From positions 1 through 30,313 of the IMG/VR virus record IMGVR_UViG_3300047274_000119: a DNA stretch of 30,313 nucleotides; one strand, given 5' to 3'. The translations under genes were made by a program, and so were the position numbers. Each line of letters opens with the position of its first letter. The stretch's first letter is position 1. Below the pieces are notes generated by a model. It did not search any database and was not told the origin of the DNA. It worked only from the letters and a program-made list of their open reading frames with translations. Source of the DNA: a virus. This document shows, in pieces, positions 8,940 through 28,088 of the stretch.

Positions 8940-9461
8940 ATGTTTCAGTTCCTAGCACTTGGCGCTTCGATCCTCGGGGGCATATCGCAGAAGCGGGCTT
9001 CTGACAAAGCGGCTGCAGCTGCCAAAGCCGCTGGCGAGTTCAACGCCAAGATCATTGAGCGCGACATTGACCTTCTGGAGCGCCAGCGTCAGATCTTTAA
9101 CGCCAACTTCCTTGTTGAAGCTGAGCGATCAAAAATAGCCTTTGAGCGCGATGTGCAGGGCGCTGTGCGTGCTGGTTTCGGCTTTGCTGGGATCGACATA
9201 TCAGAAGGCTCTCCGCTGCAGATCTTGCGCGAGAACGCGCGTGAGTTTCAGTATCAGCAGGATGTTGCGGAGTTTAACCGCGAGATCGCCAACATGCAGA
9301 TTTCGGATCAGCAGGAAAGTGCTAGGCTGAATGCGCAGTTGTCCCGCATGGAAGGTGGCGCACAGGCTGCCGGCTTGCGTGCGTCTGGCAGGGCCAGCCT
9401 GATTGGCAGCGTCGGAACCGCCGCTCAGATCGGCTACGAATACAAACTGTTTGGTGGGTGA
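8940..9461 (+). CDS. Internal virion protein, gp14-like (putative)
   Basis: The 173-residue protein starts at ATG 8940 behind AGAGG (8929-8933). A TTG at 8937 is also in frame but lies too close to the ribosome binding site. Residues 1-20 are hydrophobic, followed by an Ala/Lys-rich helix, then a long charged helix. A glycine-rich patch (GFGFAGIDISEGSP, near 80-94) precedes a second long helix and a Gly/Ala-rich end. This layout and the position directly after the nozzle gene match T7 gp14-type ejection proteins, which enter the host outer membrane. Sequence identity to T7 is not visible; the role is inferred. Confidence 0.75.
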   Translation: MFQFLALGASILGGISQKRASDKAAAAAKAAGEFNAKIIERDIDLLERQRQIFNANFLVEAERSKIAFERDVQGAVRAGFGFAGIDISEGSPLQILRENAREFQYQQDVAEFNREIANMQISDQQESARLNAQLSRMEGGAQAAGLRASGRASLIGSVGTAAQIGYEYKLFGG

Positions 9462-9463
9462 CA

Positions 9464-11215
9464 ATGAAAATTCCAGTCTTCCGCTCTGAGGCTCAAGCCA
9501 CCAATGAAGCACCAGGTTCGCGCATTACTGCGCGGATGAATGCACAGCCATTCGTGCAGGCTGCCTTGGCCAAGGGTGAGGTCATCGGCGCGGCCATGAA
9601 GGGGATTGGCGACTACGCACTTGTGCGCGCCAAGGCTGAGGCCGAGGTGCAGTACAACGAGGCCATGCTTGCAGCCGAAGAAGAGATGCGCACGCTGGCC
9701 GAAAGCCTGAAAGAGAGCGGGCGCCTTGGCGATGTGATCAACGAAAAAGGCACCGGCGCTTGGCAGGTGCAGACCAAGGACATGCGTGAGCGTCTGGCCG
9801 ATGGGCTGTCCAGCCGATCGATGACGGACCAGTTTAATGCACGCTTCAATCAGCAAGAGCTGACCGTAAGGTTCCAGCTGCGTGATGCCATTGAGACCCG
9901 CATCAAGGCGCGTGCAGCTGCAGCGGCCAAGGCTCGGCAGGACGCGCTGGTTGCTCAACTCTCGGACCCACGCACTAATCCTGACATGGCAGCCATGCTG
10001 CTGACCAGCCAAAACGCAGAGCTGCAAGCAAGTGTCGCAAATGGCATTATGACGCCTGATACAATGGCAGCAGTGAACACTGAAATGGTCAATAAAATTG
10101 TTGGCAATGTGACCAAGGGCTATGTTTCCGCAGATCCGGCAAAAGCGATCGCGTTGATGAAGGCGCTGGAATATCAAGAGCAAGTTGACGCTGGCTTGAT
10201 GACCGCACAAGAAGCGGCAGAGCTGTCTGGCCTTGGCCCTGATGCGTCTTACACGCTGTCTGTTTTGCGCATGGCTCGACCAGATATTGTAATCGAAGCT
10301 CTCGGCGCTGCGGTCACAGAAGCCAATAAACTTGACGGCGCATTGGACGAGCTGCGCACGGAGCAAACGGCTGCAACCAACTTGTCTAATCAGAACCTCT
10401 ACAACTCAACATTTGGAGTTGATCCCACGGCTCCGGCCAGCTTGGATTTGACGCAGCGCCTGCAGGCTGCAAACCCTCAAGCTTTGGCTCTCGCCGGCAT
10501 CAGCCCAGATCAACCGATTAACGGCAAGCAATATTTGGACGCAGCAACAAATGCGCTTGATCGCCAGAACTTCTTGTCGTTCGAACAGCGCAAGACGCTC
10601 GACACGCACCGCAATCCGGATGTGGCGGGGCCGTTTGCTACGCAGACCGATCCTGGAGTTTACAAGAAGCTACATGACAAGCTGCTGAGTGGCACGCTCA
10701 CAATGCAGGATCTTGATGCCAACATTGGCGACTTGTCTCTGCAAGATTGGAAGGCAATGTCTGAAAACATGCAGACCGAGGCAGGAGAAAGCTTTAGGCT
10801 TGTTGATGATGGAGTAGCATCTGCCTTTAACTACAACAGGGCGGTGGCGCCTACAGATGATCAAGCGAAAGAGGCGCAGGCTGCCTACGCATTCGTGATC
10901 GCCCAGCTGACCCGTGAGTACAACGCAGCCCGAGAGGCTCGCAATCCGATGACATCAACGCAGCTTACAACCCGCGCCAATGAACTGGTGGACGAGCGCA
11001 TGGTGTCTTATCGGGCAAGCCTGAAGGCGCAACTCAGTGATTATCTTGCGACTCAGACACCATCTCTCGGAGTTACTTTGAGGCCTGGAAATGAGCTGGC
11101 AGATCTGGATGCCTGGTATGAAACTCTGACGGACCCCACACAAATTCAGCAATCTAAGCATGCTGCGATCCGTGCGCAGATCATGCGCTACACGACGATG
11201 ATACAAGGGCAGTGA
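9464..11215 (+). CDS. Internal virion (ejection) protein 1, gp15-like position
   Basis: This 583-residue protein is almost entirely helical and Ala/Gln-rich, without membrane spans. ATG 9464 is preferred over the in-frame GTG 9458: it leaves the GGTGGG ribosome binding site (9453-9458) free and starts just past the upstream stop at 9461. The N-terminal third has long helices rich in Ala and Glu (QYNEAMLAAEEEMRTLAESL). The remainder is less regular. T7 gp15 is 747 residues and occupies the same place. It probably forms part of the channel that carries DNA across the periplasm. No enzymatic motif was seen. Confidence 0.75.
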   Translation: MKIPVFRSEAQATNEAPGSRITARMNAQPFVQAALAKGEVIGAAMKGIGDYALVRAKAEAEVQYNEAMLAAEEEMRTLAESLKESGRLGDVINEKGTGAWQVQTKDMRERLADGLSSRSMTDQFNARFNQQELTVRFQLRDAIETRIKARAAAAAKARQDALVAQLSDPRTNPDMAAMLLTSQNAELQASVANGIMTPDTMAAVNTEMVNKIVGNVTKGYVSADPAKAIALMKALEYQEQVDAGLMTAQEAAELSGLGPDASYTLSVLRMARPDIVIEALGAAVTEANKLDGALDELRTEQTAATNLSNQNLYNSTFGVDPTAPASLDLTQRLQAANPQALALAGISPDQPINGKQYLDAATNALDRQNFLSFEQRKTLDTHRNPDVAGPFATQTDPGVYKKLHDKLLSGTLTMQDLDANIGDLSLQDWKAMSENMQTEAGESFRLVDDGVASAFNYNRAVAPTDDQAKEAQAAYAFVIAQLTREYNAAREARNPMTSTQLTTRANELVDERMVSYRASLKAQLSDYLATQTPSLGVTLRPGNELADLDAWYETLTDPTQIQQSKHAAIRAQIMRYTTMIQGQ

Positions 11216-26366: not shown

Positions 26367-26538
26367 TGTTCTTTTCCAGTTCTGCAAGTTGTTGCTCGGC
26401 GTCGCGCAGGTAAAAGCACAGGATGCCGATGTCCTCTCCGATAGCGGCGGATCTGACACCAGTTCCGTGCAGCCGCTCAAGATCCGCGATCTGTTGTTTC
26501 TTCAGTTCGATGTAGGCGAGTAGGTCTTGCTTGCTCAT
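26353..26538 (-). CDS. Small coiled-coil protein (61 aa)
   Basis: A 61-residue protein overlapping the methyltransferase stop by 4 nt (ATGA) and the next gene by 14 nt. It is two helices with heptads ([20 protein letters not shown] and YLRDAEQQLAELEKNNATD). One Cys is near the middle. No DNA-binding or membrane motif. It could pair with the neighbouring coiled-coil proteins. Function unknown. Confidence 0.6.
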   Translation of the reverse strand: MSKQDLLAYIELKKQQIADLERLHGTGVRSAAIGEDIGILCFYLRDAEQQLAELEKNNATD

Positions 26539-27806
26539 TCTAGTATCTCCATTACGCTTTCGATGAAGGTTTGCGCGACCGGGGCAGCGATGGCATTGCC
26601 GTAACCGCGCAGTCGTCCCACTCTGGCGGCAGACCCATGAGCCAGCGGGAATGTGCTGGGTTCAACTGGCCGCCACTTTCCATCCCGGCAGAAGAGCCAA
26701 TCAGCATCTCGCCAGAAACCGTTAGTCGGGCCGCTTGAAAGGTATCGCTGGGCCATGTCCACATTTTCGTCAGGTCCGACAGCGCCACTTGCTTGTGGAC
26801 CCCCTTCGCTTTGTGCCGAGAGTGCGCTGCGTTGAAACTCTCCTCCGTCGCGTAGCCCGCGTTGAAACTGTCGTGAACCTGCGGCGTCGGCCAGCCTGCA
26901 ATCCAAGCCACCCTCGGCACCGTGTCGTCCCGCATCTGGCCGTCCCTCCGAAACATTGAACCCTCCAGATTGCCCGTGTCCTTGTGGTCCCGTGTCGTCG
27001 GCGTCGGCCATCCCGCCATCAGCACGAAGTCGTTCAGATTGTTCGACCGATCCGGGTTCTCCACCCGATCCTCCCCGCCCGATCTGAAGTCCCGCATCTG
27101 CGGCGTCGGCCAGCCTGTCATAGCTTCCTGCATCCTGCGCGATGGTTTCCCCAGCATCGCCTTCGCCATTTCTGGCAGTGGCGCTTGCGATCCCGTGTCT
27201 GACGTTGTCGGCGTCGGCCAGCCTGTCAGGCGTTCCGCTACAGACGGCAATGATGGGCTGAACTGGCCTTGGCCTTCTGTGTGATGATCCCGCATCTTCG
27301 GCGTCGGCCAGCCCAACAAACCAGAGGCGCTGTCTGATATGCGGCGCGCCGACGCCCGCAGCGCACAGATCAGCAGCCCCAAAGGCGTAGCCCGTTGCTT
27401 CCATGTCAGCGTGTACAAGGTCGAGCCAGCCGAGGCCGTCCTTGCTTGCAACCTGCTCGCCAAAGACGACTGAAGGGCGGCACTGGCTGATGAGATGGTG
27501 CCAGTGCGGCCAGAGGTGCCGCTGGTCATCAAACCCGCCTCTTGCACCTGCCGCGCTGAAAGGCTGGCACGGGCAGCTTCCTGTCCAAACAGGACGGTCG
27601 TCGGCCCAGCCTGCGGATCGCAAGGCGTAGGACCAGACCCCGATGCCCGCGAAGAAGTGGCACTGAGTGAAGCCTCTGAGTTCATCAGGGGTAACATCGA
27701 CAATTGATCGGTCATCCACCACTCCATCGGCTATGTGGCCTTGCTTGATAAGTTCCCGCAGCCATGCGGCGGCCTTGGGGTCGATCTCGTTGTAATAGGC
27801 GGTCAT
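26535..27806 (-). CDS. dcm: DNA cytosine-5 methyltransferase
   Basis: Transfers a methyl group from S-adenosylmethionine to carbon 5 of cytosine. Motif I is FAGIG at residues 52-56 (SAM binding). Motif IV is GSCPCQPFS at 76-84 with catalytic Cys80. Motif VI is FGEQV near 115-119 (Gln where ENV is usual), motif VIII is RQRLWFVG at 158-165, and motif X is [10 protein letters not shown] near 399-408. Residues 165-330 form the variable target-recognition region, with repeated RLADA or MADAD units. The product starts [19 protein letters not shown], typical of phage enzymes I recall. No partner restriction enzyme is present, so self-protection against host restriction is likely. A second frame inside the gene is described separately. 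Confidence 0.92.
26552..27715 (-). CDS. Overlapping frame inside the methyltransferase gene, GWPTP-repeat protein (387 aa)
   Basis: An open frame of 387 codons runs inside the methyltransferase gene, same strand, different frame. ATG 27715 ([10 protein letters not shown]) has GGAG at 27722-27725 six bases upstream. Early segments include [20 protein letters not shown] and [11 protein letters not shown]. Five GWPTP-x-x-x-x-D units (KMRD, TTSD, QMRD, TTRD, QVHD) fill the middle. The end reads [21 protein letters not shown] recall near-identical motif sets in many bacterial and phage database proteins, usually called hypothetical or methylase. The same DNA repeat gives GWPTP in this frame and LADA in the enzyme frame. 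It may be a real dual-coding gene or a conserved shadow; I favour real but uncertain. Confidence 0.4.
26883..27315 (+). repeat. Five imperfect direct repeats in the target-recognition region
   Basis: The 16-mer GGCGTCGGCCAGCCTG (plus strand) occurs exactly at 26883, 27102 and 27210, and with changes at 27000 (ending ATCCCG) and 27300 (ending AGCCCA). Start-to-start spacing is 117, 102, 108 and 90 bp, all multiples of three, so both overlapping frames keep their phase. Four of the copies have a TCCCG (T/C)(A/G)TC-type stretch shortly before them. They encode LADA in the methyltransferase frame and GWPTP in the other. They are coding repeats, not CRISPR repeats, because they are inside an intact gene and the gaps are coding. 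Confidence 0.8.
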
Positions 27807-27988
27807 TGGATGCCCAACCGATCCAGCGCGAAGTATGATGTCTTGTAGGCTTTAATAAGCCGATCAACTTGTTCAAGTTTTGCCTGTATATGCAGGCTGG
27901 GCGCGCCGTCGCTGGTCAGCGTCTCGCGGTAATCCCACAGCGCCGTCAGCACGATGTGGGTGTCTTTTGCTCCAAGTCTAACAGCCAT
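27803..27988 (-). CDS. Small hypothetical protein (61 aa)
   Basis: ATG 27988 (MAVRLGAKDTHIVLTALWDY) is preferred to the earlier in-frame start at 28057, because the small gene ending at 27990 occupies that space. It overlaps the methyltransferase start by 4 nt (ATGA). The product is a helical bundle-like peptide: ALWDYRETL, then HIQAKLEQVDRLIKAYKTS, with an acidic to basic change toward the end. No family recognised. Coupling to the methyltransferase suggests it is produced in proportion to it. Confidence 0.62.
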   Translation of the reverse strand: MAVRLGAKDTHIVLTALWDYRETLTSDGAPSLHIQAKLEQVDRLIKAYKTSYFALDRLGIQ

Positions 27989-27989
27989 C

Positions 27990-28088
27990 TCACCACCCCG
28001 CGCCGTGAGCGATGAGCAGCAGGCCGTAGCCCACAGCGAACAGGCAGATGGTGGCAATGGCCTCAGCCAAGATGTCTCGGATTTTCAT
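27990..28088 (-). CDS. Tiny single-span membrane protein (32 aa), first gene of leftward operon
   Basis: A 32-residue frame from ATG 28088, with GGAG seven bases upstream, ending TGA 27990-27992 one base before the next ATG at 27988. The peptide starts MKIRDILAEA, continues with one hydrophobic span (IATICLFAVGYGLLLIA) and ends HGAGW. It is too short for most gene callers, but its strong ribosome binding site and precise fit as first gene of the operon support it. Many phages have such tiny early membrane peptides; their roles are mostly unknown. Confidence 0.6.
   Translation of the reverse strand: MKIRDILAEAIATICLFAVGYGLLLIAHGAGW

Follow-up and report, generated by a model that had tools for sequence, protein, structure and literature searches.

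A cytosine methyltransferase gene on a virus contig contains a second, fully overlapping reading frame on the same strand, and comparison of homologues makes dual coding at this locus nearly certain. The locus very probably encodes a two-polypeptide C5 cytosine methyltransferase, the nested frame (beta) being the putative recognition and motif IX subunit. In the proposed scheme, the enclosing frame (alpha) would give the large domain for AdoMet binding and catalysis (motifs I-VIII) plus a C-terminal motif X helix, and beta, separately initiated inside alpha, would give the small domain, with motif IX and, in the GWPTP repeat region, target recognition. We infer a precise start for beta, its association with alpha as one enzyme, recognition as the function of the repeats and an anti-restriction role, in which the enzyme would methylate the DNA of the phage itself, probably as a defence against host restriction. 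The two-polypeptide reading is favoured because alpha modelled alone has ~190 disordered residues between the catalytic domain and motif X, because PHROG_1008 unites the nested beta with separate actinophage betas beside an alpha, and because M.EcoHK31I has the same published motif partition. Against it stand the occurrence of ATG 27715 in a minority of homologues and the low confidence of the beta model.

The two frames and the predicted structure of alpha

The window (the whole 30,313-base virus contig analysed here) carries genes for a head-tail adaptor, tail, internal virion protein and endolysin; amid the virion genes, a 585-aa ORF at 9458-11215 (+) has no PHROG match. Alpha and beta share the minus strand, with beta shifted +1 relative to alpha (Table 1). 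A sequence-only reading of this DNA had described a 387-codon frame inside the methyltransferase gene, with its own Shine-Dalgarno (SD) site and a C-terminal motif, and each of these features was recovered: the frame is open throughout from its ATG to its stop, GGAG ends 6 nt before that ATG, and the motif is present in beta, where it is followed by a short tail. The five GWPTP units that it counted are also present, with the spacing corrected from four to three residues before the aspartate (GWPTP-x3-D, ending in KMRD, TTSD, QMRD, TTRD and QVHD). One DNA thus has two readings, LADAD repeats in alpha being GWPTP in beta, and alpha motif X is partly encoded by the same DNA as the beta motif IX-like segment. 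Motifs I-VIII of alpha span 27312-27659, and inspection of the alpha sequence found motif IX absent from this frame. Residues E117, Q118 and V119 of the motif VI equivalent are invariant in the homologue alignment. The stop of an ORF upstream of alpha overlaps the alpha start as ATGA, and coupled translation of the two is possible.

Table 1 Features of the overlapping methyltransferase frames, in window positions
Feature	Position	Strand	Basis
Alpha, C5 cytosine methyltransferase frame, 423 aa, motifs I-VIII and X	26535..27806	-	PF00145, PHROG_363, AF2/Foldseek
Beta, nested +1 frame, 387 aa from ATG 27715 or 391 aa from ATG 27727	26552..27715	-	Homologues, PHROG_1008, wobble constraint
GGAG, Shine-Dalgarno-like, 6 nt 5' of ATG 27715	27722..27725	-	Read directly
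Alpha motif IV, GSCPCQPFS	27555..27581	-	Read directly
Alpha motif VI equivalent, differs from ENV	27447..27470	-	Read directly; alignment
Alpha motif VIII	27312..27347	-	Read directly
Alpha motif X	26562..26615	-	Read directly; confident AF2 helix
Alpha residues 175-365, without predicted secondary structure; place of the recognition domain in a single-chain methyltransferase	26712..27284	-	AF2
Beta segment (15 residues) in a confidently modelled hairpin	27383..27427	-	pLDDT 82-87; wobble constraint 0.74, alpha codons 127-140
Beta GWPTP repeat 1	27287..27313	-	Read directly
Beta GWPTP repeat 2	27197..27223	-	Read directly
Beta GWPTP repeat 3	27089..27115	-	Read directly
Beta GWPTP repeat 4	26987..27013	-	Read directly
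Beta GWPTP repeat 5	26870..26896	-	Read directly
Beta motif IX-like segment (19 residues)	26609..26665	-	Read directly; wobble constraint; profile match
84-aa ORF upstream of alpha	27803..28057	-	Stop overlaps alpha start as ATGA

Alpha matches PF00145 (E 5.5e-12; 46.2 bits against a gathering cut-off of 22), with the PCQ of motif IV present, and PHROG_363 over residues 1-421 (E 8.5e-85). Its AF2 model has a C5 catalytic domain at residues 1-170, which Foldseek matches to M.HaeIII and M.HhaI (E 2.6e-7), and forms motif X as a confident helix. The ~190 middle residues are modelled as disordered, lacking helices and strands from about 172 to 364, with pLDDT mostly 31-51. On this model, the stretch of alpha that reads through the recognition region probably forms a disordered linker, and its frame would be kept open by the requirement for beta.

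Conservation of the second frame

Homologues were fetched with the alpha protein only, and thus without selection for beta. Four scans with divergent queries, including those from Bacteroides, Synechococcus and Paenibacillus phages, yielded 222 distinct loci of 38-69% GC. In the first scan, the +1 frame was open in all 68 homologues (distinct loci, 46-70% alpha identity), usually over ~90% of the gene and at minimum over about three quarters, and the +2 frame had ~17 stops per gene. Under a strict rule covering the stretch from motif IV to near the gene end, the +1 frame was open in 205/222 homologues and the +2 frame in 1/222, most failures reflecting just an extended alpha tail or a +1 frame that opens later. 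Homologues with an intact methyltransferase and a broken second frame would have spoken against the sequence-only reading; when sought, only 3/222 loci (L031, L252 and L354) had lost the arrangement, and in these the alpha frame itself is altered and enters the beta reading, as after an indel. Stop codons were also counted against a null in which synonymous codons were shuffled within each gene (12-97% part of 69 genes), which is conservative because the gene's own codon usage is retained. The +1 frames held 13 stops against 257 expected, and the +2 frames showed no depletion (918 seen, 853 expected).

The second codon position of beta is the wobble position of alpha, so that fourfold-degenerate alpha sites report on beta. 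Across 47 distant homologues (29-58% alpha identity), fourfold wobble identity was 0.33 before beta and 0.52, 0.65 and 0.77 along it (expected 0.27-0.28), and 21 of the 45 strongest wobble columns were fully fixed. These sites are almost fixed where conserved beta residues are specified and near-random elsewhere; for example, alpha P155 is CCG in 48/48 sequences, giving Arg in beta, and alpha T361 is ACT in 37/37, giving Leu. Wobble constraint is ~0 before alpha codon 70, begins to climb in codons 71-98 and reaches its maximum, 0.92, over motif IX (alpha codons 379-392). The BLOSUM score of beta exceeded its shuffled null in 74/74 homologues (median z 9.2, minimum 3.4), with shared ancestry contributing in the close ones. 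Where the sequence-only reading had allowed for a frame free of constraint, the codon statistics (wobble, BLOSUM null and stop depletion) indicate strong constraint. These tests are simple nulls, distinct from a phylogenetic overlapping-gene model, and at the level of sequence comparison they show conservation of both frames and selection on the protein sequence of beta itself.

The start of beta can be bounded in the same way. ATG 27715 and ATG 27727 are in-frame candidates, with an upstream in-frame stop at 27733. Stops in the +1 frame occur at chance in alpha codons 27-41 (34 seen, 32.3 expected) and are depleted from codon 42 (7 seen versus 31.6 expected in codons 42-70, and none versus 102.8 in codons 99-168); therefore, beta would start at or before about codon 42. 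Among homologues, ATGs cluster at alpha codons 27, 31 (equivalent to 27715), 37 and 41, with the codon-31 ATG present in 35/74 and the codon-37 ATG in 53/74, of which 36 have an SD-like site. The beta start seems to drift among adjacent ATGs, and in the window it is most likely ATG 27715, its GGAG being the best SD locally.

Relatives of beta and alternative readings

Beta matches PHROG_1008 (E 2.2e-38) and had no match in Pfam, NCBIfam or PDB sequence searches. Its methyltransferase label reaches it via PHROGs only, and PHROG names may come from neighbouring annotation. PHROG_1008 includes the annotated internal genes K1ind2 ORF28 ('Mte8-like') and Shelly gp56 ('g55 internal gene'), together with non-nested actinophage betas beside a separate alpha: RedFox gp43 (E 8.5e-57), Anthony gp79 and Lilbooboo gp33. 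The RedFox genes gp42 and gp43 are separate and adjoining, Lilbooboo gp32 and gp33 overlap by 32 nt, and Anthony gp80 and gp79 overlap by 215 nt; the beta of all three phages holds LLPTP repeats, motif IX and motif X. The nested beta aligns with stand-alone beta (E 1.9e-6) and with the Shelly internal gene (E 3.9e-14), its profile matches the motif IX stretch of a one-frame methyltransferase over 19 columns (E 3.6e-4), and stand-alone beta aligns with the C-terminus of one-frame Gordonia and Mycobacterium phage methyltransferases (E 3.6e-24). In the 779-position model of PHROG_116, alpha (205-378) and actinophage beta (424-495) occupy consecutive positions. Together, these alignments show that beta is homologous to stand-alone genes and, via those, to the C-terminal part of a one-frame methyltransferase.

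Some loci depart from the nested layout. Gordonia phage JKSyngboy (L193) and Mycobacterium phage Papez (L195) have motifs IX and X in the alpha frame, and their +1 frame keeps LPTP repeats and ends before motif IX, which would mean a beta limited to recognition or else a frameshifted chain. In L173, as in the three loci that lost the arrangement, alpha enters the beta reading as after a single indel, producing a fused catalytic and motif IX chain that is either a natural variant or a sequencing error. GenBank records vary, some annotating both frames and others one or none. The second-frame ORF is annotated and alpha left out in Tunturi_1 (ORF50; L198) and phiKX2 (PhiKX2_110; L200), and neither frame is annotated in SAP012 (L190). 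In the phiKX2 alpha frame, the usual GNA motif X is replaced by PMRDAFAQEIIKEI. The nested layout is mostly missing from annotations, and a literature search of partial coverage found no paper describing this overlap in phages.

The beta frame might instead be reached by programmed ribosomal frameshifting after alpha motif VIII, yielding a fused catalytic and recognition chain. Such chains are what L031, L173, L252 and L354 resemble, where a single frame passes from alpha into the beta reading, and L193 and L195 are one-frame relatives. We nevertheless consider frameshifting highly unlikely: it would free alpha codons 42-168, yet 8 stops were seen there against about 140 expected; the fused chain would be without motif X unless shifted back; and the actinophage betas are separate genes with their own starts. 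Frameshifting as the only route to beta was rejected, as +1 stops are already depleted from alpha codon 42, long before motif VIII.

Even less weight is given to the view that beta is a real protein with another role (a regulator, inhibitor or anti-restriction partner) rather than the recognition subunit. Beta modelled alone has no confident recognition fold: its AF2 model is mostly of low confidence (mean pLDDT 55), with a better helix and hairpin at 76-123, and a Foldseek search with it found no PDB match. As a mostly low-confidence prediction, this stand-alone model neither supports nor refutes a recognition role. Another role fits poorly with the motif IX-like C-terminus of beta, its homology to the C-terminal half of a one-frame methyltransferase and the absence of a structured region from alpha at the recognition position. 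Finally, an open +1 frame arising as an artefact of GC-rich, repeat-rich sequence plus alpha constraint, the repeat part of which the sequence-only reading had itself raised, is rejected as extremely improbable, because although repeats occupy the middle region and high-GC sequence often contains long open frames, the shuffle null, the +2 control, the wobble fixation and the +1/+2 counts across 222 loci all contradict it, and the +1 frame is open in 37/39 homologues of <45% GC.

Known split methyltransferases and implications

The preferred two-polypeptide reading has precedents. M.EaeI is a two-polypeptide C5 methyltransferase, like M.EcoHK31I. In the latter, as reportedly described by Lee, Kam and Shaw in 1995, the large gene encloses the small one, which is read in a different frame, a layout that the window shares. 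The larger M.EcoHK31I polypeptide has motifs I-VIII, motif X and a predicted recognition domain, and the smaller has motif IX (PMC3404938); likewise, alpha has motifs I-VIII and X without IX, and the beta C-terminus carries the motif IX-like segment. However, the recognition domain of M.EcoHK31I is placed in the large subunit (PMC3404938), whereas here it is provisionally assigned to beta, the alpha reading being predicted as disordered. EcoHK31I is also part of a YGGCCR restriction-modification system, whereas the gene in the window is a phage gene, likened by motif partition, with no restriction gene nearby among the window ORFs examined. EcoHK31I sequences were not found in the collections searched, and when a restriction-linked copy was sought in plasmids and enterobacterial genomes, the relatives with flanks examined looked prophage-borne.

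M.AquI, whose split differs from that of M.EcoHK31I (PMC3404938), similarly carries its catalytic and recognition parts on two polypeptides. Its layout, with motifs IX and X both in beta, is matched by the actinophages RedFox, Anthony and Lilbooboo; in the window, by contrast, motif X lies in alpha and the genes are fully nested. The hidden HNH endonuclease of the ShiLan actinophage methylase is likewise an out-of-frame ORF inside a phage methylase gene (PMC11855218), but that is a homing-element insertion, whereas here the second frame spans the native gene, is conserved in phages of several bacterial phyla and matched no nuclease family in profile searches. PHROG_1008 and PHROG_363, which contain the window beta and alpha, are both labelled 'DNA methyltransferase', with the overlap unrecorded.

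The sequence-only reading had proposed a rare dual-coding arrangement; dual coding is supported and rarity is not, the arrangement being widespread in phages and probably the same as the known two-subunit enzyme M.EcoHK31I. It occurs in phages of proteobacterial, actinobacterial, Bacteroides, Paenibacillus, cyanobacterial and acidobacterial hosts. The kind of enzyme is already known, and what is new is its spread across phages and its near-absence from annotation. If the reading is true, few conserved same-strand gene overlaps in phages would match this one for length (~390 codons here) and spread, predictions of specificity made solely from the annotated frame would misread the recognition region, and alpha cloned alone would be expected to be inactive or unspecific. 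With layouts that range from fully nested through partly overlapping to separate genes and one frame, the birth or loss of an overlapping gene would become directly testable. It also appears likely that obligate bipartition extends to an entire superfamily of phage cytosine methyltransferases, with the recognition domain and motif IX in a second frame, so that single-frame database annotations would describe half an enzyme and specificity would evolve under a two-frame constraint.
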